Shown here piece by piece: positions 1 through 30,057 of a stretch of DNA of 30,057 bases. The position numbers and the translations under genes are program-made. The stretch is from the IMG/VR virus record IMGVR_UViG_3300048686_000134, positions 1-30,057 of that record. One strand, given 5' to 3'. Numbering within the stretch: the first letter of the stretch is position 1; each line of letters begins with the position of its first letter. The notes beneath the pieces are model-generated. The model saw only the letters and a list, made by a program, of their open reading frames with translations. It did no database searches and was not told the DNA's origin. Origin of the DNA: a virus.

Positions 1-3000
1 CTAATTAATGATGTGGATCTCTTAAATAGATTTACAAGACCACCTAATGCAAATTCTTGTGGCTCGCCTAAATGAACTCTTGTTAGACCAGGAACATCTT
101 TAAGAATTTTTTGATAACTAAATCCTAATGGTGAATAATCTTCTGTTAACCCTGGCCTTATGCCAATGTCTTCACCATATCCTAGTGCGCTACCCTTAAT
201 AACATAGATCATTCTTCCTCTACTATCTCTTACTTCAGAGATATTGTCAGAGCCAAATTCGCTTCTTAGTAGTGGCCCATGAACACTTTCTGATGCACTA
301 AGACCCATAGAAGACTTAAGACGCTTAATAGTATCTGTTGGAAGAGTATATCTTAGTGCCCCTCTTTCTCTCATCAATGTATCAAAAAGTGTTTCAAGAC
401 CAACGTCATTATATGCTTGTCTAACTTCACTATAAAGGTCTGGATCAGATATTGTTTTTGAACTAAGTCTTCCTATTCTTGATGATACGGAAGATGCTAA
501 TCTATCTGCTGCTTGTGAGGATGTTATTCCTAATCCAGCTAGAACAACTTTTGCTGATGGAACCTGATCAAATGTAGACTGATAAAAATCAACCATACTT
601 GTTAGTGCTCGTACATCTTCTTTTGAAGCTCTTCCAAATCTTAGATCTTTATTAACATCGGCTGCAAATTGTCCTTTTCCAACTCCAACGTTGGCTGACA
701 TTGCAGAAAGTACATTAACTCCAGCTCTTGACTTCATTCTTCTAGAAAGAGTTTGTAGGACACCTGGATCACTTACTTCTGATAAAAACTTAAATGTTCT
801 ATTGCTTCCAATTCTTTCGGACTGTGATGGCCTACCAGCAAATCCCATTGCAGCAAGAACTCTAGCTTGTTCTTGAAGATTCTTTGCTACTTGTCCACCC
901 CCAGGGCGATTGAATGGTGCGCCAAAATACTGGACACCAGGAATTGGGCCACCAGCATTTCTCTTTAACACCTCATTACCATTATTTATTGCATGTAAAA
1001 GAGGAAGATTTTTTTGAGTTGCATCTTTATTAACTACAAACTCTCCAGGAGTAAGCATTGCTGGAACAGTATCGGTATTTCCAACTCCTGGAACAGTTGC
1101 TCCCGTAGACATATAATTTATTTTGCCGCCGCGATTTCTTCTTTGTTTTCTTGGTGGTCTTGCTCCTGCACCAGTTGCAGCAGCAGCAGAAGGTCCAAAG
1201 AAGACGTTGCTAAGTTCAGCGGTTTGTAATTGCTTTGCAATTAAAATATCATAGGCTTCTGATAGATTTTGAATAGCTACTCGTGCATTTCCAGCTGCTG
1301 CTACCTGCTCTAATAATGCGGCATTTGCTGCATCAGTAGCAATACCAAGCTGTTGTGCGGCACCAGCAGCCTCAATTTCTTGTAGTCCCATATATCTTAA
1401 TGATTGTGATACCGCTTGAACTGCACCAGATATTCCGCCTTTTCCAAGACCCTTTATAGCTACACCAATAACACTTCCAAACTTTACTAAAGTTCCCATC
1501 AAGTTCATTAACAAGCCCAAGAACATAGTTCCTGCTGGGATAACTACTCCAGTTATAATTGTTGCAAGTGCAACAAAGTTTTTAGCACCGTCTGGCAACT
1601 TATCAAACATTTCAAATAGTTTTGAGAAAAAGTTAATAATTGGTGTTGATATTTTCATAAACATTTCACCAAGTGGTGCGATAGACATTTTAAATCTTTC
1701 CATGGCAGCCATATACTTTGTAGATGTTGCCTCAGAAATAACGCTTAGTTCTCTTTCTGCTGATGTAGCCATTTGCTCTGCTGACAAACCAGCTAATTGT
1801 AAAACTCTTGATGCCTGAGTTCCGTCTTTAATAATGTTGTCAAACAATGCTCCAAGTCTTGCGTATTGGTATTTACCAAAAAGTTCTTCCAATGCCTGCT
1901 GACGAGTAAATTTATCAAGTTTAGAAATCTCTTCTGCAAAGGCTGTTACTGTTCCCATTAAATCGCCACGATTTGTTTGAACGATGTTTGTTATATTAAT
2001 TCCCATCTTTTCTAATGTTTCAGTAGCTTTATTTGTTGGATTAATTAATGATGCAAGACCAGATTTTAGAGCGTTTGCTCCTTGAGCAGCACTTACACCA
2101 CCTTCTTGCATAGCAGCCATCATTGCAGCAAGATCTCTTACGTCACCACCTAAACCAACAATTACTGGCGCTACTCTTGGAATTGCTCCAGCTAGGTCTT
2201 GTAGGGTAACAACTGTTTGGTTTTCAACTGCGTTTAAAAAGTTAATTTCTTTTGTTAAGTCTGTTGTAGAAAGCTTAAAAGCATTTTGTAAGGCTATAGT
2301 TGCACTTAAAGCTTCTCCTTGCTCCATTTGTCCCAGGGTAGCAAGCCTTGTAGCCTCAGTCGTTGCAGCAACAAGTTCAGCATTTTTTGCACCAGCAGCA
2401 GCAGCCTCAGCCGCCAGCCCAATAGTGTCTTTTACTGCAATTCCATATTTAGTAAATTCAACAGCAAGACCTTCAACTGCCTTCATATTTTGTTCAATTT
2501 CTTCTGGAGTTGTAAATGCATCTCCATATACTTTTTTAAATCTTACTGCTGCCTGCTCAATTTCTTTAAATGTTTTACCTGCGGCAGCACCAAAAATTGT
2601 AAGTGGAACAGTAAAACCAACCATCAACTGGCGACCAGCCCACTGTGTATTCTTACCGAAGTTAATCATTGAAGTTGTTGCTTGACGCAACATTGCACGA
2701 TGAATAGCTAGTCTTTCATTTGACACCATTGCACTATCATTAAATGCCTGTAGTGGCCGTATTGCAATAGCATCTCTAAAACCATTTGCAGCGGAAGTTG
2801 CACTAACAAATTGTGTTTGAAGCGACTGAACTCTAGAATTTGCTAAAGATAAAACTGCTGCTGCCTCAGCACTGTTTTTTCTAAACTTTGCATTAAAATA
2901 TTGACCAAGAGTTGCTTGACCTTTTGTAAGAGTTTGATCAAGTCGTTTTGCAGATGTTTCCATCTTAATTTGCTGTGCAGTAAATGCTCCTGTAGCGTTT

Positions 3001-20720: not shown

Positions 20721-21021
20721 GTCTTCCATCCTCAATAGGCATTTCAATATTTTCTTCAAAATCATTAGTTGTTTCGTTACTATATGTATTTTTATTTTCT
20801 AATGACATTGATCTCCAAAGCCTTACATCTTGATATGCAGCACCACCAATGTATGATGCAACAACTGCTCCCATTAAACCAAATGCCCCTAATGCTAGGG
20901 TGTCACCAATATCTGTGTTATCCCATCTTATAGCTACATAAACTATAATTATTGCGGCAAAAAGAAGAGATCCAAATACTGCTCGCCTTCTAAGTTTCCA
21001 TGATGGTCCTTGTTGAGCCAT
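20713..21021 (-). CDS. Two-TM membrane protein, possible second holin or antiholin
   Basis: A 102-aa protein. The N terminus is positive (WKLRRRAVFG), with TM1 at about 15-33 and TM2 at about 41-61 (LALGAFGLMGAVVASYIGGAA), then an acidic soluble C-terminal tail. The segment after TM2, SYIGGAAYQDVRLWR, resembles small membrane proteins encoded next to holins. It lies directly upstream of and overlapping the r1t-type holin, which supports a lysis role. The ATG at 21021 is exactly 7 nt after the TGATATAAT hexamer, predicting a leaderless mRNA. The function is not proven by any motif. Confidence 0.7.
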   Translation of the reverse strand: MAQQGPSWKLRRRAVFGSLLFAAIIIVYVAIRWDNTDIGDTLALGAFGLMGAVVASYIGGAAYQDVRLWRSMSLENKNTYSNETTNDFEENIEMPIEDGRHV

Positions 21022-21027
21022 ATAAAA

Positions 21028-21036
21028 ATTATATCA
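21028..21036 (-). promoter_or_regulatory. Leaderless promoter TGATATAAT of the holin unit
   Basis: Minus-strand TGATATAAT, six bases TTTTAT, then ATG 21021. The predicted start site is the A of ATG. It lies in a 44-bp divergent gap opposite the oxygenase promoter. Confidence 0.7.
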
Positions 21037-21050
21037 TTTTATCTAAATGT

Positions 21051-21059
21051 TGCTATAAT
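21051..21059 (+). promoter_or_regulatory. Leaderless promoter TGCTATAAT of the plus-strand oxygenase
   Basis: TGCTATAAT, six bases GTTCCA, then ATG 21066. The spacing is identical to the divergent holin-unit promoter. No SD is present before the ATG. Confidence 0.65.
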
Positions 21060-21065
21060 GTTCCA

Positions 21066-21851
21066 ATGATTGTAGAAGAACTATATCCGCAAATACTAGT
21101 ATTTCATGATGCATTAGAAGATCCTAAAAATTTTTTAGAAACAATAACTAACCCTAATGAATTTGTTGAACCATGGCATGATTGGTATACTTTAGGAAAA
21201 CAAACTATGTTTAAAAATTATCCGTATTTTAATTTTAATAATTTTCCTAGTGAAGAAGAATGGTTAAGTTCTTGCAATCAAAGCGATAATGATTTAGCAA
21301 AATATATAGCAAACATTTTTTATAAATGTACAAAATACTATGTTGATAAATATAATGTAGATATTGAAAATTGGAATCATGGAATGCCTACAATTTGTAG
21401 TCACAAGGGTAGCGAAATTGAAGAGCCTGGATCAGAAAAAACATTGGCAATGCAATATCATACAGATTTTGTAATGTCACAAAAAGATAATCCTGGTTTT
21501 AAGCATTGGATTACCTGTAATTTATATATAAATGACGAATATGATGGTGGTGAAGTTTCATATAAACTATTTAAAGATGATGGCACTTATGACTTATTAA
21601 AATATAAACCAAAAGCTGGAGATGCTGTAGTTTTTCCATCTCACGAACCTTACTATCATGGTGTTAAAAAAACAAAAAATGGAGAAAAATTTTTTATAAG
21701 AATGTTTTGGGGATACAATTATTCTGGTAGCAAAGAGTGGTTAGAAAATAAAAATAAATATGGCGATGCATGGGAACAAATGGAAAAGGAAAGAATTAAA
21801 AAAGAAAACATGTCATCTTTATGGATGAAGGGTCATATAGAAGAAGATTAG
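21066..21851 (+). CDS. 2OG-Fe(II) oxygenase, prolyl-4-hydroxylase type (plus strand)
   Basis: 261 aa. It uses O2 and 2-oxoglutarate with Fe(II) to hydroxylate a substrate, probably a protein proline or another side chain. The metal triad is H132-x-D134 (QYHTDF) and H198 (YYHGVKK), with R212 (FFIRMFW) for 2-oxoglutarate. The core NLYINDEYDGGEVSYKLF and KPKAGDAVVFPSHEP is the standard P4H beta-helix. ATG 21066 (MIVEELYPQI) is chosen because it sits 7 nt after TGCTATAAT; the upstream in-frame ATGs lie before the promoter. The gene is very AT-rich and is the only oxygenase on this strand. Its TAG overlaps the TAA of the convergent oxygenase gene by 4 bp. The substrate is unknown. Confidence 0.88.
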   Translation: MIVEELYPQILVFHDALEDPKNFLETITNPNEFVEPWHDWYTLGKQTMFKNYPYFNFNNFPSEEEWLSSCNQSDNDLAKYIANIFYKCTKYYVDKYNVDIENWNHGMPTICSHKGSEIEEPGSEKTLAMQYHTDFVMSQKDNPGFKHWITCNLYINDEYDGGEVSYKLFKDDGTYDLLKYKPKAGDAVVFPSHEPYYHGVKKTKNGEKFFIRMFWGYNYSGSKEWLENKNKYGDAWEQMEKERIKKENMSSLWMKGHIEED

Positions 21852-22552
21852 TCTTTATGATATTGATGAATTGGATGAATAGTCTCTTCTGCTTCACCAG
21901 TTTCTATATTCTCAAAAACTCTATTTTGCTCCATTAATCTTTTTACTGCGGGATCAAATGCAAATGTAGTAGAAATATATCTATTTGGTCCGTCAAGAAC
22001 TGGCAATGTGCTATGAGTATACTTAGTTGTTCCTGGATGCATAAGTAAGTCACCAGCTTCTGGCTTGTATTTTATATTTAAGTTTTCATAAAATACTTCT
22101 CCACCATTAAAGTCATTGTGATAAAGAACCATTCCAAACTGAACATAATTTGTTGTTCCATCAGTTCCAGATGGATTATCTGCGTGTGGAAACATTTTTT
22201 CACCAGGCTTCATTCTATGAACAGTGATTAGCCCACCAAAAATCCATTTTTCTTCTCTTTCATCATCAAAAAGATTTCTTATTCTTTGCATTACATTATG
22301 AATTATTGGATTAGATATATTTTCTTCTCCAACATAGGCTATTTTTTTATTCCACCATTCACGTTTATCTTTGTCCCATTGTTCATCTGTAGCAGATTCA
22401 GCTATGTTTAAAAACCAATCTCTTTCATCTTGAGTTGTAAAATTTTTTATTACATGAATATTCTTTTCAACTTGATAATAGTTTGGGTGATTTAAAATTT
22501 TTTCTACCTGATATATGCTTTCGTCACTAATAATATCGTTTAAATTTTTCAT
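21848..22552 (-). CDS. 2OG-Fe(II) oxygenase, prolyl-4-hydroxylase type
   Basis: A 234-aa enzyme of the same superfamily. Metal ligands are H123-x-D125 (MFPHADNP) and H180 (KYTHSTLP), with R191 (GPNRYIST) for 2-oxoglutarate. Core strands are VLYHNDFNGGEVFYENL and IKYKPEAGDLLMHPG. The acidic C-terminal extension (EETIHPIHQYHKD) is not part of the core. The start ATG overlaps the TGA of the upstream oxygenase gene as ATGA, so the two are co-translated. All catalytic residues are present, so it should be active. It diverges clearly from the other two in the N-terminal half, suggesting a different substrate. Protein hydroxylation is inferred from family only. Confidence 0.88.
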   Translation of the reverse strand: MKNLNDIISDESIYQVEKILNHPNYYQVEKNIHVIKNFTTQDERDWFLNIAESATDEQWDKDKREWWNKKIAYVGEENISNPIIHNVMQRIRNLFDDEREEKWIFGGLITVHRMKPGEKMFPHADNPSGTDGTTNYVQFGMVLYHNDFNGGEVFYENLNIKYKPEAGDLLMHPGTTKYTHSTLPVLDGPNRYISTTFAFDPAVKRLMEQNRVFENIETGEAEETIHPIHQYHKD

Positions 22553-23250
22553 GATCCAGTCTCCCTATAAAATTCTGCTTTATGAAATTTATCTGAATAA
22601 TCAAGCATCGTTACTAAAGAGTATTTAGTTCCCTTTCCTACTGGCATAGCTCTATGAGGATACATAAAATTAGATGGAAATATAAATAGATCACCAGCCT
22701 CTGGCTTAATCATTAAATTTTGAAGTCTAAAATATAGCTCTCCGCCACTATAATCATCATTTAAATATGCAACTAAAGATACCGTGCAGTTATATGAGTA
22801 TCCATGATCCGCATGTTCTTGAAAGTGCTGATTTGGCCCGTACTTGACCAAATTCATAGCCTCCCAATACCTTAGCTCTCCAATATTATATTTTAGTGTA
22901 TAGTCTTTAACTGGTTGCAGCTGTCTATAATATAAATGATTATATAAATCATTTACAGTTTCTAATTTTGGAGACCCGTAGCTTTTCATACTTGTTGGCT
23001 TGTATTTAAAATCATAACAATCTCTATACTCTGGCATTAATACACCATAGCCAACATAGGCTGGTGTCCATTTAAAAAATTGATCAGATCCGTCAAGAAT
23101 TTTTGACATGGTATCTATAACTTCTTTACCATTTGGTATTACGTTTTTATAAACCCATATACCATTACCCAAATCTATTGATTCTGTCCATGTTTGTTCT
23201 TGAATTTGATACCATTCTTGTATTTTTTGATGCTCAATTGCTTGTTGCAT
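22549..23250 (-). CDS. 2OG-Fe(II) oxygenase, prolyl-4-hydroxylase type
   Basis: A 233-aa enzyme. Ligands are H146-x-D148 (FQEHADHG) and H199 (MYPHRAMP), with K209 (GKGTKYSLV) in the 2-oxoglutarate position. The core VAYLNDDYSGGELYFRL and IKPEAGDLFIFPSNF is canonical. The N-terminal 130 residues are helical and aromatic-rich (EWYQIQEQTW, WTPAYVGYG). It starts at ATG 23250 with GGAAAGGAA upstream. Its -10 TGATATAAT lies 21 nt before ATG, embedded in the end of the upstream gene. It is the first gene of a two-oxygenase unit. Confidence 0.88.
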   Translation of the reverse strand: MQQAIEHQKIQEWYQIQEQTWTESIDLGNGIWVYKNVIPNGKEVIDTMSKILDGSDQFFKWTPAYVGYGVLMPEYRDCYDFKYKPTSMKSYGSPKLETVNDLYNHLYYRQLQPVKDYTLKYNIGELRYWEAMNLVKYGPNQHFQEHADHGYSYNCTVSLVAYLNDDYSGGELYFRLQNLMIKPEAGDLFIFPSNFMYPHRAMPVGKGTKYSLVTMLDYSDKFHKAEFYRETGS

Positions 23251-23280: not shown

Positions 23281-23881
23281 TGTTGGGTATTATCGGCATC
23301 CATTTCTGTGGATACTGACCAATTAATTTAGATGTTGTAATAATATTAAAAGATATTCCTTTATCAATTCCATAAAACTCTGTTCTTGCACCAGACTCAT
23401 ACAATACTAGTGAACCATTTTCTATATTAGTCTTTGTAGAATTTATTTTAATAAAAGCATTATCTTTACATTCTAAAATCCAATATCCACAAAAATTGGG
23501 CGCACCTATTCCACCAGAATCATACCAATAATCTTCTAAAAACTCTGTTTCATATTCTGATGTAATCCAAAACTGTGTTTTATCCGTATTTATTTCATTT
23601 ATTTTACAAAGAGAGCCTAACATTTTTGACAATTCTTTAAAACACTTATAAACACTTTGATTATAAATTTGAAAATAGTTAAATGATAGATTATTTACAC
23701 ATGACCTTTCATATAAAAATTCTGCTTTTTCTCCAGAGGTGAACAAATATATATTTTCTTTATTATTGATTACTTTTTCTATATCTGAAACTACCTCTTT
23801 TGGTGTAACATTTGAATGCTCAACATTATTAATATATTGTTTTTTATTAAAAATAATATATTTTTTATGTCTATTGTCCAT
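23273..23881 (-). CDS. Unknown protein, oxygenase-like fold but no metal ligands
   Basis: A 202-aa AT-rich gene. The C-terminal half (NFCGYWILECKDNAFIKI, IENGSLVLYESGARTEFYG, ISFNIITTSKLIG) has the strand pattern of the P4H/cupin beta-helix, including 'GSLVLYES' where active relatives have 'GDxxxFPS'. However, there is no HxD and no distal His, so the site looks dead or different. The N-terminal half is Lys/Asn-rich with no recognisable motif. It overlaps the preceding gene by 11 nt and precedes the active oxygenases. It could be a decayed paralogue or a substrate-binding partner. The fold resemblance is a visual judgement. Confidence 0.55.
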   Translation of the reverse strand: MDNRHKKYIIFNKKQYINNVEHSNVTPKEVVSDIEKVINNKENIYLFTSGEKAEFLYERSCVNNLSFNYFQIYNQSVYKCFKELSKMLGSLCKINEINTDKTQFWITSEYETEFLEDYWYDSGGIGAPNFCGYWILECKDNAFIKINSTKTNIENGSLVLYESGARTEFYGIDKGISFNIITTSKLIGQYPQKWMPIIPNMI

Positions 23882-24434
23882 TTTCTTCTCTTTCTATTTT
23901 CCCACCAATTCTGTGGTTATACCAAGTATAGGGGAAGACAACATCTCTTTGCATTTCAGTTTCAGGTAGCTGAGACCTTCCATCATTTTTTATTGCTTTT
24001 TTTTCATGTTCAAGCATTTTTACAACTTTTTGATATGCAGCTTCCATTTTACTATCTCTGTCTCCGCCAACATCCATTTCTATATTAAAGTTTCCTAAAA
24101 ATATTATTCTTGTCATTATTCCATACCATAGCCACCAACCTTTTCTTCTATGCCTGGGATTTACCCAACCACTAACTCCATAGTACATTCCAGAACCCAC
24201 TGCTGGATGCAAATATAAAGAATGTATGTCTGGATACTTATGATAAAAATAAGGAGATTCTACAATTGTTCCTTTTGGTAGATCACTATTTGCATACATG
24301 CAATATACATAAGAATAATGATTATGATCTGTTAATTTGTGAATATGCATCCAGCTTGACTCCAATTCAGTTGGATATGATTCAATATCTATTACAAGAA
24401 TATTGTTAATAATTTTTTTTATAAAATTTGTCAT
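23871..24434 (-). CDS. Unknown protein, weakly acyltransferase-like
   Basis: 187 aa. The segment SGMYYGVSGWVNPRHRRKGWWLWYG resembles the beta4-loop-helix of GNAT N-acyltransferases, where an R/Q-x-x-G-x-G/A loop binds the CoA pyrophosphate; here RRKGWW is off-consensus. The C terminus is charged (LEHEKKAIKNDGRSQLPE) and ends in FPYTWYNHRIGGK. Trp, Tyr and His are unusually frequent. It lacks an obvious SD (the stop of the Hint gene lies 7 nt before the ATG) and is probably translated by coupling. The GNAT idea is tentative; otherwise this is a hypothetical protein of the modification cluster. Confidence 0.5.
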   Translation of the reverse strand: MTNFIKKIINNILVIDIESYPTELESSWMHIHKLTDHNHYSYVYCMYANSDLPKGTIVESPYFYHKYPDIHSLYLHPAVGSGMYYGVSGWVNPRHRRKGWWLWYGIMTRIIFLGNFNIEMDVGGDRDSKMEAAYQKVVKMLEHEKKAIKNDGRSQLPETEMQRDVVFPYTWYNHRIGGKIEREENGQ

Positions 24435-24441
24435 AATAATT

Positions 24442-25401
24442 CTACTGATTTATTGGTGTAATATTTTGAATTGGATGCGAGTCATGAACTAACATATTTT
24501 CAGTAAAGAAAATATCATATGGTTCGGTATTAATACATACAACAGTATTTGGAACATTTACTTTTTCTAATAAAAATATTTCTTCAAATGTTTCAGTTTC
24601 ATAAGAATAAACTAAGTCAGTTTCAATAACTTCTTTTACATCAATAAACTTTGCCTCATTATTTCTTTTAATTAAAATATAATGAGAATCTGAAAAAAGA
24701 TCATTATTAATAACAATTGCCCAATCTGAAACTCTTTTTGCAATTCCAAAGATGCTTGTTTCCGTAAACTGAATATTTGGATTTTCACTACTCCAGTTTA
24801 ATGCCTGCGTATTTGAATTATCATTTGTTGACCAGTTTTGTGGAAAATTCTCAATGTCTGCTGACAATAAAATATCTCCAGGCTCTAAATCTCCAGCAGC
24901 AACAAGGCCATTTGGAGTTCTTATTAATGTATCTACACCAACACTTTTTGCATATGGTGGCTTAAAGTTTGGTGGAAAGTTTGGTGGAAAGAATGGTGGA
25001 AAGAATGGTGGAAAGAATGGAGGAAAGAATGGTGGGAAAAACGGTGGGAAAAACGGTGGGAAAAACGGTGGCACATAGTTATAATATGTATAGTTTACTT
25101 GTCCGTTTGGGTCTAGTGGAGTATTTTCAGCAGGAGACTGACTGATAATTATATTATTCAATGCAGAATTTGTAGTATTTGATGGTGTTTGTGTACCAGT
25201 AGTTAGTCCTCTAGCAGCAATGAGAGTATTTGCATTAGTTCGTGTCAGATTAACAACGTTTGGAGTTATAAATAGCCATCTTTTCCAGGTACCAGAAACT
25301 TTGACAAAGGCATCCACAGAACTTCTCCAGGTTCCTGAAACCTTGGCAAAAGCTCTTGAAATGCTTCTATATGATCCGCTATCTTTTACTGAACTGGGCA
25401 T
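24442..25401 (-). CDS. Hint-domain protein with FFPP tandem repeats
   Basis: 319 aa. Residues 12-42 hold two copies of the motif AFxKVSGTW. Residues 48-107 read like a PASTA-type or small beta domain (TRTNANTLIAARGLTTG). Residues 113-140 are seven exact FFPP units, then NFPP and NFKPP. Residues 153-308 form a Hint (hedgehog/intein) fold: S153-VGVDTLIRTPNG, where Cys1 is replaced by Ser; DLEPGDILLS; block-B-like H240 (SDSHYIL); VINNDLF; and an end EPYDIFFTENMLVHDS with H306, D307 in place of Asn, and S308. Hint domains cleave or splice their own backbone. It sits among tail-type genes just upstream of the oxygenases. No signal peptide is seen. Whether it is autocatalytic is unknown because two key positions deviate. 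Confidence 0.78.
   Translation of the reverse strand: MPSSVKDSGSYRSISRAFAKVSGTWRSSVDAFVKVSGTWKRWLFITPNVVNLTRTNANTLIAARGLTTGTQTPSNTTNSALNNIIISQSPAENTPLDPNGQVNYTYYNYVPPFFPPFFPPFFPPFFPPFFPPFFPPFFPPNFPPNFKPPYAKSVGVDTLIRTPNGLVAAGDLEPGDILLSADIENFPQNWSTNDNSNTQALNWSSENPNIQFTETSIFGIAKRVSDWAIVINNDLFSDSHYILIKRNNEAKFIDVKEVIETDLVYSYETETFEEIFLLEKVNVPNTVVCINTEPYDIFFTENMLVHDSHPIQNITPINQ
24955..25065 (-). repeat. 12-bp coding tandem repeat (FFPP/NFPP)
   Basis: Seven 12-bp units at 24982-25065, plus degenerate NFPP/NFKPP units down to 24955. Plus-strand units fall into two adjacent subtypes, ggtgggaaaaac and ggtggaaagaat, which suggests stepwise expansion of local blocks. Each unit encodes Phe-Phe-Pro-Pro, so the repeat keeps the reading frame. 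Confidence 0.9.
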
Positions 25402-25403
25402 AA

Positions 25404-26078
25404 TTACACATACTTAATCCATATGTCACCATCATTACCACCAGTTGGATCTGAGGTTGATGCAGTAATATTCCTTACTCTCGCACTCAGTGGTTGTGCT
25501 CCAGCTAGTGTAATAGATGTTGCATTAGATATTGTACCACCAGTAATGGGCACATATGTTGCTGATGCAGAAGCAATAGTAAGATAAGCTGCTAGTTCTG
25601 TACCAATTGTCTGTGTTGTTAAAAAGTTTGAAAAAACAAATGGATCAGTCATTACCTGATCTTTATCTACCCAAACTACACCGTGTGCAGAAGCACCTCC
25701 AACGCTGGGCATATTATTAGTAAGAGTTGCAGTTCCAGATTCTATAACTTGTAATGAGCTAGCATCAGAATCAATCCACATAAACCCTTCTGGAATAGAT
25801 ATGCTTGTAGACTGAACAATTAGCTCATGTGGAATATTTGGGGCAACTGTTCCACCACCAGTTGGTGTTGCTTCAATAAAGTCTATATCTTCTCTTATTT
25901 TTAAGAGGTGTCCATAAATACTTTCATCTGATGGTTCTTCACCAGTGATATAGTTTTCTTTACCATAATGATAAATTCTAAAGGCTTCTACAATATCAGC
26001 CTTATCTCCTAATTCTGCAATCAATGTATCAAACTCTATAAATGGAGAGTTCGCGGCAGTAGAAATAAGTTGTGGCAT
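25404..26078 (-). CDS. Tail/minor structural protein
   Basis: 224 aa. The first 70 residues are helical and acidic (FIEFDTLIAELGDKADIVEA and SIYGHLLKIREDIDFIEA), a typical oligomerisation or attachment segment of phage fibre-like proteins. The middle and end are Ala/Ser/Thr-rich beta sequence (TATLTNNMPSVGGASAHGVV, TIASASATYVPITGGTISN), ending TGGNDGDIWIKYV, a frequent terminal motif of tail proteins. SD AAGGTG. The promoter TGATATAAT lies 21 nt before ATG. It is followed after 2 nt by the Hint gene, so the two products are probably made together. Confidence 0.68.
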   Translation of the reverse strand: MPQLISTAANSPFIEFDTLIAELGDKADIVEAFRIYHYGKENYITGEEPSDESIYGHLLKIREDIDFIEATPTGGGTVAPNIPHELIVQSTSISIPEGFMWIDSDASSLQVIESGTATLTNNMPSVGGASAHGVVWVDKDQVMTDPFVFSNFLTTQTIGTELAAYLTIASASATYVPITGGTISNATSITLAGAQPLSARVRNITASTSDPTGGNDGDIWIKYV

Positions 26079-26817: not shown

Positions 26818-26826
26818 ATTATATCA
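26818..26826 (-). promoter_or_regulatory. TGATATAAT promoter sharing the halogenase stop codon
   Basis: The TGA of the halogenase gene (26826-26824) is the TGA of TGATATAAT. A leader of about 9 nt with GGAG precedes ATG 26802. Confidence 0.6.
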
Positions 26827-28422
26827 TTCTTCTCCATTATAAATTTGATCTTTTAAGTATTGATAAAGAGTTGGAGATTTATCTGCTGCATCTTGCCAAA
26901 GAGCCTTGTTAATTTCCCAACGCCTTATTGTTTCATCAATAGTTCTCTTATAGTCAATTCCAAACTCATACTCAAGAGATTGAATTCTTGCATCATTGAT
27001 CATTTTAACATGCATACCAGTAGCGATGTATGGAATTCCCGCTCTAGAAAGTGGGTACTCCCATCTATCCATATAATTCATTCCAAAATCTGCATACCCA
27101 CCAGCCTTAGGAACTACATTATCCATCATATCTTTTGCAAACACTCTATCGTTTACATCTTGCCAATACTTTGTATCATTACGATGTGATAAAGCATAAT
27201 GTAGTCCTACAAATTGAGCAAATCCATAAAATAATGTCTTTGATGAAGCATTGAATATGTCTCTATCATACTGAGAAATTTTTTGCTCTCTATCAAGAAT
27301 ATCAACAAGCTTGAATAAAAATTCATGAATGCTATATAGTCCATTGCTTTCTAGTGGCTCAATAAATGCAGCAGAAAGACCAATTCCAACAACATTTTTA
27401 ACAAAGACTCTTTCGTGCATACCAACTCTAAATTGAATATCTTTAAATTCTAGGGAATCAACTTCTTCCCTAGTTCTTGGTATGACCATTCTGTCAGACA
27501 TTAAATATTGTTTGAATTCTTCCTTTGCTTGTTCTGGATCAGCATACTTATCAGAGTATACATATCCTGCTCCAAGGCGCGACCATAAAGGAATATTCCA
27601 GCACCAGCCATTTTCAATAGCAGTAGAATTTGTAAATCCCTCAAGCTCTCTTTCTTTATCCTTGTAGGGAATTCTTGTAGCCCATGCCCTATTATTTGGC
27701 AACCTATCTGCCCACGACTCAAATGGCTCATTCATTGCGCCACCAAGAAGTAGACTCTTAAATCCAGTGCAGTCTACATAAAGATCTGCGTTAATAACGT
27801 CGCCATTATCAAGTGTAAGAGACTCTATCCCTTCATCATTTACCTTAATATCCTCAACCTTACCTTGTATTAACTTTACTCCACGAGGTAGGCAGTAATT
27901 TTCTTTTAGCCATGCACCAAACTTTGTAGCATCAAAATGAAAAGCAATATCTCTATGAATATTAAAGTTTGCAAACTCTCCATTTAAATTAAGATTAAAC
28001 TTATTTCCTTCAAAAAGTGGGGTAGCAGGGAAAAGACACCTGACCATATCGTCCCAGGGAGTATCTGGATAGTAATATTTCTTATAAAACCAATCATTCA
28101 TACCAAAGTTAGTATGCTCAAGCCATGGGGCACCAAACGGGTAGTGGAAAGATTCTCCATCCTTCTCATAAAAATCAGTAAATTTAATGCTTAATTTATA
28201 TGAACCATCTGTACTTGAAAGAAAGTCTTTATCTTCTAGACCAATAAAATTTGTCCAATTTCTAATGCCACCGATTGTGCTTTCTCCTACGCCAACAATC
28301 GGAATGTCTTTTGGCTCAATTACTGTGATATCTAGGTGTGGATATGCCCGAATAAGAGATGTTGCACTCATCCATCCACCAGATCCGCCACCAACAATTA
28401 CAACTTTTTTTACTTCAAGCAT
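26824..28422 (-). CDS. Flavin-dependent tryptophan-halogenase-like enzyme
   Basis: A 532-aa enzyme using FADH2, O2 and halide to make an enzyme-held halogenating species. The FAD-binding motif is VIVGGGSGGWMSA (8-20). GVGESTI (44-50) and the probable catalytic Lys76 (GSYKLSIKF) follow, then the second FAD motif YVDCTGFKS, and the halogenase-specific W-x-W-x-I-P at 273-278 (WCWNIP). Later, SAAFIEPLESNGL matches the family's substrate/chloride-side loop. All key residues are present and length is normal (about 500-540). It is preceded by a consensus promoter (28453-28481) and GAAGGG before ATG. The substrate cannot be read from sequence: free tryptophan or indoles, a metabolite, or a peptide. 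No flavin reductase is in the window, so the host must supply FADH2. Confidence 0.93.
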   Translation of the reverse strand: MLEVKKVVIVGGGSGGWMSATSLIRAYPHLDITVIEPKDIPIVGVGESTIGGIRNWTNFIGLEDKDFLSSTDGSYKLSIKFTDFYEKDGESFHYPFGAPWLEHTNFGMNDWFYKKYYYPDTPWDDMVRCLFPATPLFEGNKFNLNLNGEFANFNIHRDIAFHFDATKFGAWLKENYCLPRGVKLIQGKVEDIKVNDEGIESLTLDNGDVINADLYVDCTGFKSLLLGGAMNEPFESWADRLPNNRAWATRIPYKDKERELEGFTNSTAIENGWCWNIPLWSRLGAGYVYSDKYADPEQAKEEFKQYLMSDRMVIPRTREEVDSLEFKDIQFRVGMHERVFVKNVVGIGLSAAFIEPLESNGLYSIHEFLFKLVDILDREQKISQYDRDIFNASSKTLFYGFAQFVGLHYALSHRNDTKYWQDVNDRVFAKDMMDNVVPKAGGYADFGMNYMDRWEYPLSRAGIPYIATGMHVKMINDARIQSLEYEFGIDYKRTIDETIRRWEINKALWQDAADKSPTLYQYLKDQIYNGEE

Positions 28423-28484: not shown

Positions 28485-29594
28485 TTAAAATGGTTCTGCT
28501 GGAGTTCCAGCAAATAATGAATCTAATTTGGGATGTGGAAGAACAATTACCACATTGCCATCAGTTTGATATGTGTCGGCAGAATTACTACCGAATCCAG
28601 CACCCATATTATAAATTGGATTTGTTCTTTGTCTATAAAAACCACCTGGGTTAATATATCCTGGATTTGATCCTGCTGGTCTGTCAAATGTTGAATTATA
28701 TTCTTGTACTCCTGCGATTGTTTCTGCAAAAACAATATCTGCCGCAAGAGCAGTATTGCCACCATTAGAAGATGAATTTGCATAGTGACCACTACCTCCT
28801 GAACCACCATTATAATGTGATCCAGAGTGTGTTCCACAGGCTCCACCCCACCAGCCTCCGCCGCCACCACCACTGGTACTCGTTCCTGCGTCTGCTCCTT
28901 GAAGTATTGTTCCAGCCACACCTCCAGTAGTCCATCCACTGCCACCACCAGTTTGTGATGCACGGCCTTGAGAGTGACCTATACCTCCTACCCATCCACC
29001 TCCACTTCCTGCTACACCATGGTGACTGTTTGATCCGTGACCACCTCCACCTCCACCGCCAGCAATAATAAGTGCTGAGGATTGTGACACACCAGTCGGA
29101 GGCCATACCGAAGCATTTGGACCAGCATGATTTTGTGCATTATAAAAGATTCCACTTAACCCACCACCACCTGATCCAGAACCGTGTCCACGACCTCCAC
29201 CACCATAGGCTTTGCCTCCCTGTGCAGCACCTATTGTAGAAGTATTACCAGTATTCTGTGTACCTTTTTGTCCAGTAATCAGAGTATATGGAATATCTTT
29301 TCTAAACTTTACTATTCCCCATGTATATCCACCGTAGCCACCACCATTATATGAGTTACTATAAGTAGAATAAATTCCTGCTCCTGCACCCCACATAAAG
29401 ACAAGTCCTTCAAAATTAGTTCTTGGGATAAATGTTCTTGCACCATGAGTGGTTGCAGAAACAAGAACTCCTGGCATCTGTGAAACTGGATCTACAATAT
29501 CGCTTATTGTAGAAATCTGCCTATTATATTGTGATCCATCTCTTTCAATAAGAGTGTATGAAACTCCAGGACCAGATACTTTATCAATTGCCAT
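28485..29594 (-). CDS. Glycine-rich adhesin/structural protein
   Basis: 369 aa. Residues 1-60 form an N-terminal beta segment (GVSYTLIERDGSQYNRQ). Residues 62-210 and 215-300 are extremely Gly-rich, with Trp and His (VFMWGAGAGIYST, GGGGGWWGGACG, GGSGGSGHYANSS). The end is DGNVVIVLPHPKLDSL. The plan of a strand like 'F.WGAG', Gly-rich loops, YTLITGQKG and a final 'VVIV' strand matches Gly-rich domains of phage tail-tip proteins. Such folds resemble polyglycine-II adhesin tips of T-even gp38. ATG 29594 overlaps the TAA of the upstream paralogue (TAATG); the TTG at 29603 is less likely. Probable role: receptor binding or virion surface (inference). Confidence 0.72.
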   Translation of the reverse strand: MAIDKVSGPGVSYTLIERDGSQYNRQISTISDIVDPVSQMPGVLVSATTHGARTFIPRTNFEGLVFMWGAGAGIYSTYSNSYNGGGYGGYTWGIVKFRKDIPYTLITGQKGTQNTGNTSTIGAAQGGKAYGGGGRGHGSGSGGGGLSGIFYNAQNHAGPNASVWPPTGVSQSSALIIAGGGGGGGHGSNSHHGVAGSGGGWVGGIGHSQGRASQTGGGSGWTTGGVAGTILQGADAGTSTSGGGGGGWWGGACGTHSGSHYNGGSGGSGHYANSSSNGGNTALAADIVFAETIAGVQEYNSTFDRPAGSNPGYINPGGFYRQRTNPIYNMGAGFGSNSADTYQTDGNVVIVLPHPKLDSLFAGTPAEPF

Positions 29595-30057
29595 TATGAC
29601 CAACCCTGTACTAATGAAATAATAACTTGCCCATTTCCACCAATATTATGTGTTGAATTGTATGGTGGTGCTGGAGTAGATCCAAGCCGCCCACCGCCGC
29701 GACCAGTATATGTATTTCTTCTTGCATTAGAAGCCTGTGCTGGTTGATTAGTGTTAGATGTTGATGCATTTGATCCAACATATACGCTTGGAGAAGTTTC
29801 AATATATGAGTTTGCTACAAATTGACGAAGATGCTGATTTGGACCGCTTGTATATAGATCTGGTGCATGTCCAGATCCTCCAGATCCTCCATTGTGATGG
29901 CCAGTAGTATGTCCACCACCGCCGCCACCGAACCAACCACCGCCACCGCCGCCAGTATGTGATGATCCAGTTCCAGCCTGACCACCAAGCATAGCAATAC
30001 CAGTTATTCCACCGTACCCACCGTTTCCTCCAGCAGTTTGTGAGGCCTGACCAGTGT
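29594..30057 (-). CDS. Glycine-rich paralogue (5' end outside window)
   Basis: The frame is open from the right edge to the TAA at 29594, so at least 153 C-terminal residues are present and the start lies outside. ATG 29992 is internal: codons upstream of it continue the same Gly-rich protein (TGQASQTAGGNGGYGGITG). The motifs GGGGGGWFGGGGGG, NGGSGGSGH and the final NGGNGQVII-type strand mirror the downstream gene, showing a tandem duplication. A role as a virion-surface adhesin or fibre component is inferred. Confidence 0.7.
   Translation of the reverse strand, partial: TGQASQTAGGNGGYGGITGIAMLGGQAGTGSSHTGGGGGGWFGGGGGGHTTGHHNGGSGGSGHAPDLYTSGPNQHLRQFVANSYIETSPSVYVGSNASTSNTNQPAQASNARRNTYTGRGGGRLGSTPAPPYNSTHNIGGNGQVIISLVQGWS

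Follow-up and report, generated by a model that had tools for sequence, protein, structure and literature searches.

What would a self-processing domain of the intein type do at the end of a phage fibre protein? The question is raised by a gene in a 30,057-nucleotide stretch of viral DNA (IMG/VR virus record IMGVR_UViG_3300048686_000134, positions 1 to 30,057; here called the window), whose product was originally predicted to join an FFPP repeat to a Hint domain that begins in serine and closes on His-Asp-Ser. If active, this domain was expected to cut or ligate the chain right after the stalk; the alternative was an inactive Hint scaffold. The best explanation of our results is that the gene product belongs to a fibre or another appendage of a tailed phage and that its N-terminal module is followed by a PASTA domain, an aromatic repeat stalk, and, at the C terminus, a bacterial-intein-like Hint domain.

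Architecture of the gene and its surroundings

The gene occupies 24442..25401 on the minus strand, where 25401-24442 translates as one open frame of 319 amino acids plus a stop and encodes a fibre-like protein with a C-terminal Hint domain; the plus-strand reading of 24442-25401 was ruled out by stops throughout. All coordinates in this paragraph are on the minus strand. The N-terminal 50 amino acids match three PHROG families without assigned function, and the duplicated AFxKVSGTW motif is found as AFAKVSGTW (residues 17-25) and AFVKVSGTW (residues 31-39; together 25285..25353). A PASTA domain follows at residues 46-103 (25093..25266; Pfam PF03793, E 2e-6), its 28.1 bits lying above the Pfam cut-off of 23.2. 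Seven perfect FFPP units form the stalk (residues 113-140, 24982..25065); when the protein was shuffled 20,000 times, no run was longer than a single unit, indicating that the repeat did not arise by chance. The Hint domain, delimited by an AF2 model, Foldseek, and VIA, spans residues 153-307 (24481..24945). Within it, Ser153 (24943..24945) aligns with intein residue 1, the nucleophile position, and the predicted scissile bond is Lys152-Ser153. Family conservation marks block B at Ser237-Asp-Ser-His240 (24682..24693), block F maps via gp41-1 to Cys289-Thr300 with the motif INxEPYDxF (24502..24537), and position and family conservation place block G and the +1 residue at His306-Asp307-Ser308 (24478..24486). 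In translation, a 12-residue tail, Ser308-Gln319 (24445..24480), remains behind the domain. Both motif copies, the seven FFPP units, and the residues Ser153, His240, and His306-Asp307-Ser308, all named in the original prediction, were confirmed by position, as was Ser237; the PASTA domain at residues 46-103 and the wider family behind the gene were absent from it.

Portal, prohead protease, and capsid genes are present in this 30-kb virus record, indicating that the window comes from a tailed phage. Two bases upstream of the Hint gene lies a tail-fibre-like ORF (25404..26078, minus strand; phrog_14064, E 1.9e-5), whose match is confined to its C-terminal residues 192-224 and which is likely on the same transcript. 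Seven bases downstream is a GNAT-like ORF (23871..24434, minus strand) with weak structure and Pfam matches: the top Foldseek match has E 0.11 and the top VIA match Z 6.8, and 7 of 26 members hit Pfam Acetyltransf_1. It recurs in 61 of the 83 loci for which neighbours were counted (the first 83, including the same-contig pairs L002/L014 and L004/L081), and 58 rows count as starting beside the Hint stop. Beyond it, two minus-strand ORFs (22549-23250 and 21848-22552) encode 2OG-Fe(II) oxygenases (PF13640, E 4.2e-14 and 3.6e-7). The "tail-type operon" of the original prediction therefore holds upstream, where the ORF is tail-fibre-like at its C terminus, but not downstream, where the genes are acetyltransferase-like or encode 2OG-Fe(II) oxygenases.

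The region 21000-23250 contains three 2OG-Fe(II) oxygenase ORFs (PF13640) in all, one of them on the opposite strand, beside the gene with the proline-rich stalk. We do not claim that these enzymes hydroxylate stalk prolines: 2OG oxygenases occur in just 41 of the 83 loci, and their absence from the flanks of many members with the proline-containing GFTPF stalk also argues against such a role. A search of the open-licence literature for prolyl hydroxylase, collagen-like, tail fiber, and bacteriophage together found no paper. An excerpt of PMC7824862 interprets a cyanophage cluster with a halogenase and 2OG enzymes as a polysaccharide or secondary-metabolite system. The fibre neighbourhood of the window also includes a tryptophan halogenase (26824-28422; PHROG E 1e-140), for which no relative was found in the other 82 loci, and two adjacent glycine-rich ORFs (28485-29992), the larger of which matches the ALK/LTK glycine-rich domain (E 1.9e-9).

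The Hint fold and its family

The sequence signal for a Hint domain is weak. When the window protein and five relatives were scanned against Pfam, the window protein matched Hint_2 at E 0.0019, below the family's cut-off, and one relative matched PT-HINT at E 0.18. Pfam Intein_splicing is matched by 8 of 60 family members (best E 6.4e-6), and an NCBIfam scan returned weak matches alone, the best among them to PASTA kinases. A profile of the relatives that begin in serine (Ser1) reaches two solved structures, the bacterial-intein-like (BIL) domain 2lwy (E 6.5e-5) and gp41-1 (E 7e-4).

An AF2 model built from 60 distinct family members (mean pLDDT 86.2, pTM 0.83) found its best solved Foldseek matches in BIL2 (5.5e-8), 2lwy (1.9e-7), and gp41-1 (8.4e-7). 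VIA gave Z scores of 18.1 to BIL2 over 134 residues, 17.2 to 2lwy over 130, and 16.6 to Hedgehog 1at0 over 130; the 50 entries listed, with Z from 18.1 to 13.8, are all inteins, BILs, or Hedgehog domains, and model residues 1-162 are covered. Model residues 5..159, corresponding to Ser153-Asp307, align with residues 1..440 of the Mtu RecA intein, and model residues 5..161 align with Hedgehog 258..402. By predicted structure, the domain is clearly a Hint fold running from block A to block G, as had been proposed, and the computed alignments show Ser153 and Asp307 of the model to be equivalent to the first and last intein residues, in agreement with where position 1, block B, and block G had been placed. 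Among uncultured phages, predicted proteins that carry PASTA, fibronectin III, or Hint annotations are also close in fold to the model, so this architecture is already in databases under domain names.

Scans of viral contigs yielded 6, 79, 21, and 80 loci, the sets of 79 and 80 covering at most 80 of 195 and at most 80 of 219 relatives, respectively. The search patterns lay in the EPYD/FFTEN region of blocks F and G, and hence block F conservation was directly selected and Ser1 and His240 were not. Across the sources, which include six named phage records, a Hint domain was found in 186 of 188 cases, L089 and L110 being without one. A match in Aphrodite1 (E 0.4), which by eye resembles an intein-type insert in a terminase-like protein, did not match the family profile and was dropped along with L110. 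The viral scans and named phages together contain at least 121 distinct Hint domains, at least 103 with Ser1 and at least 18 with cysteine at position 1 (Cys1); the window shares 31-60% identity with the 59 relatives compared. All Ser1 loci are from uncultured viruses, and 106 pattern matches in bacterial and archaeal genome contigs included no relative by tblastn. On a quick tree, the Ser1 and Cys1 sets are split by a branch with support 100, and their profiles match each other at E 4.5e-18 in that single comparison. Some contigs carry two Hint-fibre genes (L060/L148 and L042/L180).

Throughout the Ser1 set, the Hint domain ends the protein after a low-complexity stretch, whose types before Ser1 are FFPP/PPF, FGA, GFTPF/PFAPF, His-Tyr-Gly-Phe, PGF/EPAF, VIIAEP, and proline runs. 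The median aromatic fraction is 0.30 in the 60 residues before Ser1 versus 0.10 in the Hint domain plus tail, and is higher before Ser1 in 95 of the 103 Ser1 domains listed. The N-terminal domains of relatives vary as well (PASTA, fibronectin III, PKD, and Ig, some below Pfam cut-offs), indicating that one conserved C-terminal Hint domain serves many stalks. The tails behind it are 2-46 residues long (2-13 in 84 and 28-46 in 19 of the 103 Ser1 domains listed) and thus leave no room for a toxin or a sterol-binding part; within a clade, short tails resemble one another (SSAI, SVAI, STAI). His-Tyr-Gly-Phe stalks (HYGGF, YHGF) occur at L070, L112, L114-L116, L118, L127, L131, and L133, and we take them to be reminiscent of adhesive animal proteins.

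The Cys1 set consists of named Alexandravirus-like jumbo phages of enterobacteria and similar contigs. All 18 Cys1 domains listed have TxxH, Asp at F:4, and a His-Asn end, followed at +1 by Thr in 17 and Val in one. Fibre examples from Alexandravirus and Rivsvirus (QQO90250.1, AXG67152.1, AWY08386.1, WOL24679.1) have in common with the window family a homologous C-terminal Hint domain whose block F reads V[DE]P[YF]D and which closes a fibre-region protein but for a tail of 9-10 residues. They differ from the Ser1 set in Cys1, TxxH, F:4 Asp, His-Asn, and Thr or Val at +1, and their Hint domain is preceded by collagen-like Gly-X-Y repeats and another domain, not by aromatic repeats. In the jumbo enterobacterial phages L084-L088, a fibre protein of this kind, collagen-like and ending in a Hint domain of the Cys1/TxxH/His-Asn type, is annotated merely as a virion structural, tail, tail fiber, or hypothetical protein. 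As this sister group has the full TxxH and His-Asn set, the ancestor of the Ser1 and Cys1 domains may have been active.

Conservation of the putative active site

Splicing requires both ends of the domain, and one-sided cleavage requires the N-terminal half alone. In the Ser1 set, the N-terminal half of the active site is kept and the C-terminal half drifts, save for the acid at its end, a pattern that fits one-sided cleavage better than splicing. Ser at position 1 and His240 are present in 103 of the 103 Ser1 domains listed, as are Asp296, Thr158, and Thr215, the last of which is Ala in the Cys1 domains listed. Position 237 in block B is Ser or Thr in 101 of the 103, with Ala or Val in the remaining two. 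The window's domain has the class 1 intein features of position 1 and block B, Ser153 being aligned to residue 1 and block B reading S237xxH240, with Ser taken as the equivalent of Thr.

The C-terminal positions are more varied. The last residue (307) is Asp in 98, Asn in 3, and Glu in 2 of the Ser1 domains listed and is thus acidic in 100 of 103; the replacement of Asn by Asp in the original prediction is real and a family trait. The penultimate residue (G:6) is His in 39, Phe in 34, Tyr in 25, Trp in 2, Lys in 2, and Met in 1, and the +1 residue is Ser in 43, Thr in 10, and another residue in 50, with block G drifting to forms such as YDG, FDR, YNL, and WEG. A His-Asn-(Cys/Ser/Thr) splice end is found in 0 of the 103 Ser1 domains listed, and the C-terminal His-Asn of type A BILs in 0 of 103 Ser1 versus 18 of 18 Cys1 domains listed. 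With respect to type B BILs, His-Asn is absent in the Ser1 set listed, yet H-D-S is still block G-like; this end, found in the window, is a rare Asp-type terminus with Ser308 at +1, class 1 inteins closing on Asn, or rarely on Gln, Asp, or Glu, before a Cys, Ser, or Thr at +1. The usual residue at F:4 is Asp. Here F:4 is Ser in 83, Thr in 17, Cys in 2 (including Cys289 of the window), and Ala in 1 of the Ser1 domains listed, with block F numbered through the gp41-1 alignment after an excerpt of PMC4031507.

Ser1 is encoded by TCN in 87 and by AGY in 16 of the Ser1 domains listed, two unconnected codon classes. The labels TCN, AGY, and Cys1 need six changes on the quick tree, where well-supported branches force at least two for AGY, so that Ser was kept through codon-class switches. 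The Ser in place of the usual Cys, pointed out in the original prediction, is not a sign of inactivity: it is invariant in the 103 domains listed, and Ser1 inteins are known, as described in an excerpt of PMC10189870. The same excerpt reports the NX-motif histidine as highly conserved in 58 Ser1/Ser+1 or Thr+1 inteins and critical in three tested Ser1 inteins. Of the 103 Ser1 domains listed, 3 contain the corresponding motif, [RK]H, in the stretch from block A to block B, where no His is conserved.

Possible roles of the Hint domain

The reading that we prefer, though our confidence in it is evenly balanced with doubt, is that the C-terminal Hint domain would cut Lys152-Ser153 and free the stalk, acting as a detachable fibre cap. 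Ser153 would attack the Lys152 carbonyl in an N-to-O acyl shift aided by His240 and Ser237, and the ester would then be hydrolysed or captured, freeing the stalk from the Hint domain. The cap may keep the sticky, hydrophobic stalk soluble or aid its assembly, akin to S74. With Asp in place of the terminal Asn, C-terminal cleavage would be expected to be slower, and a +1 nucleophile would not be needed in about half of the family. Release after the stalk, one part of the original proposal, fits the conservation; ligation, the other part, fits less well, with Ser or Thr at +1 in 53 of the 103 domains listed, although the window's own H-D-S would formally be a possible Asp-type splice end. The lack of the NX histidine and of the F:4 Asp in the Ser1 set counts against cleavage, as do the two domains listed with Ala or Val at position 237: either another residue replaces the histidine, with Thr215 as a candidate, or the reaction may be slow, triggered, or dead.

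These same absences, together with the drift of block G, would suit an inactive Hint scaffold, which would remain attached to the fibre as a folded C-terminal knob or a cap for trimer formation, with Ser1 and His retained for structural reasons. Against it stand the invariance of Ser1 and His240 and the near-invariance of Ser/Thr237 among the Ser1 domains listed despite their divergence from the window, the retention of Ser across codon-class switches, and the fact that the N-terminal reaction residues alone are retained while the C-terminal ones drift. A structural role for Ser1 is possible, but a neutral scaffold would be hard to square with an invariant Ser1 and His, and we consider this alternative, which the original prediction had raised, unlikely though by no means negligible. 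Decay of a once-selfish intein with which the fibre gene ended would account for the likeness to BILs, whose probable origin lies in inteins or in an ancestor shared with them (excerpt of PMC4031507). A remnant would, however, drift or vanish, and at least 103 distinct sequences carry the domain at their C terminus with Ser1, His240, and Asp296 invariant, making this reading very improbable indeed.

Three further readings would have the stalk joined to something else. In Asp-type splicing or C-terminal cleavage, a class 1 route through Ser1, His, Asp, and Ser308 would join the 12-residue tail to the stalk. Inteins with a terminal Asp take this route according to an excerpt of PMC4031507, all 39 domains listed with a penultimate His, including that of the window, end in H-D followed by Ser or Thr, and similar short tails recur within a clade. 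The penultimate His changes just twice on the tree, so its link to the +1 residue is not independent evidence; moreover, 50 of the 103 domains listed have neither Ser nor Thr at +1, no obvious purpose would be served by ligating a tail of 2-13 residues, the length in 84 of 103, and the NX His is absent, and we regard this route as quite improbable. Hedgehog-like transfer, in which an amine or alcohol on a nearby fibre, lipid, or sugar would take over the stalk from Ser153 and so anchor it covalently, is fairly improbable. It would agree with the restriction of conserved chemistry to the N-terminal half, with the acid at position 307, with the structural similarity to the Hedgehog autoprocessing domain 1at0, and with the company that Lys at position -1 (24946-24948 in the window) keeps: a GNAT-like gene lies in the flank of 44 of 49 distinct domains listed with this Lys versus 0 of 52 without it, after two short-flank rows, one of each kind, were dropped. 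This association amounts to two to three changes on the tree, is therefore indistinguishable from shared descent, and may serve as a lead, not as evidence; in addition, no acceptor is known, and no sterol-recognition region stands behind the Hint domain. In a one-sided acyl-transfer device, the stalk might be handed over as an oxyester from Ser153 to a nucleophile outside the protein, so that sticky aromatic fibres are cross-linked or anchored on the virion or host, with the GNAT-like enzyme acting on Lys(-1). We give this a small chance of being right; if true, viruses would have their own equivalent of Hedgehog processing, and nature an ester-based system for ligating proteins.

Among known systems, the BIL domain 2lwy of C. 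thermocellum is the best profile match with a solved structure (E 3.4e-7 with the Cys1 profile, compared with 6.5e-5 for Ser1), and the window family differs from it in its place at a fibre C terminus, its Ser1, and its Asp end. Ser1 class 1 inteins (Aes123 PolB1, 9hth; PolB16 OarG) have Ser1 and the block B His as in the window family, which is without their NX histidine and terminal Asn; the match is weak and lies in the C-terminal half (E 0.01; Z 15.3). One-sided processing would be alike in Hedgehog, but the window family has Ser1, not Cys1, and no sterol-recognition part, the window protein having 12 residues behind the Hint domain. The PT-HINT domains of polymorphic toxins also stand late in a surface protein, with the difference that no toxin domain follows in the window family (2-46 residues in the 103 Ser1 members listed). 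The likeness in action that we propose for the detachable cap is to the peptidase S74 chaperone, a C-terminal, self-releasing domain; S74 autopeptidase domains occur on low-complexity tail-fibre proteins (excerpt of PMC7824862). S74, which has a Ser-Lys dyad, is an unrelated domain: the C-terminal fold found here is Hint, and Pfam gave no S74 match in the window protein or in five relatives.

The phage fibre Hint family with Ser1 and an Asp end is apparently undescribed in the open-licence literature. A search there for Hint, PASTA, and phage found no paper, the passages found for tail fibre and Hint concern inteins in enzyme genes (terminase, ribonucleotide reductase, helicase), and no report of cleavage in the Ser1 family was found among the open-licence papers retrieved. 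The occurrence of many stalks (FFPP, FGA, GFTPF, HYGGF) before one domain suggests a general solution for aggregation-prone adhesive repeat fibres. If active, the family would be a case of Hint domains put to use in building virions instead of in selfish splicing or the release of toxins, and would give phages a second route, unrelated to S74, to shedding a C-terminal fibre cap. It would also provide a natural collection of roughly a hundred distinct Ser1 Hint domains without the histidine thought to tune Ser1 chemistry, and thus a direct test of that chemistry.
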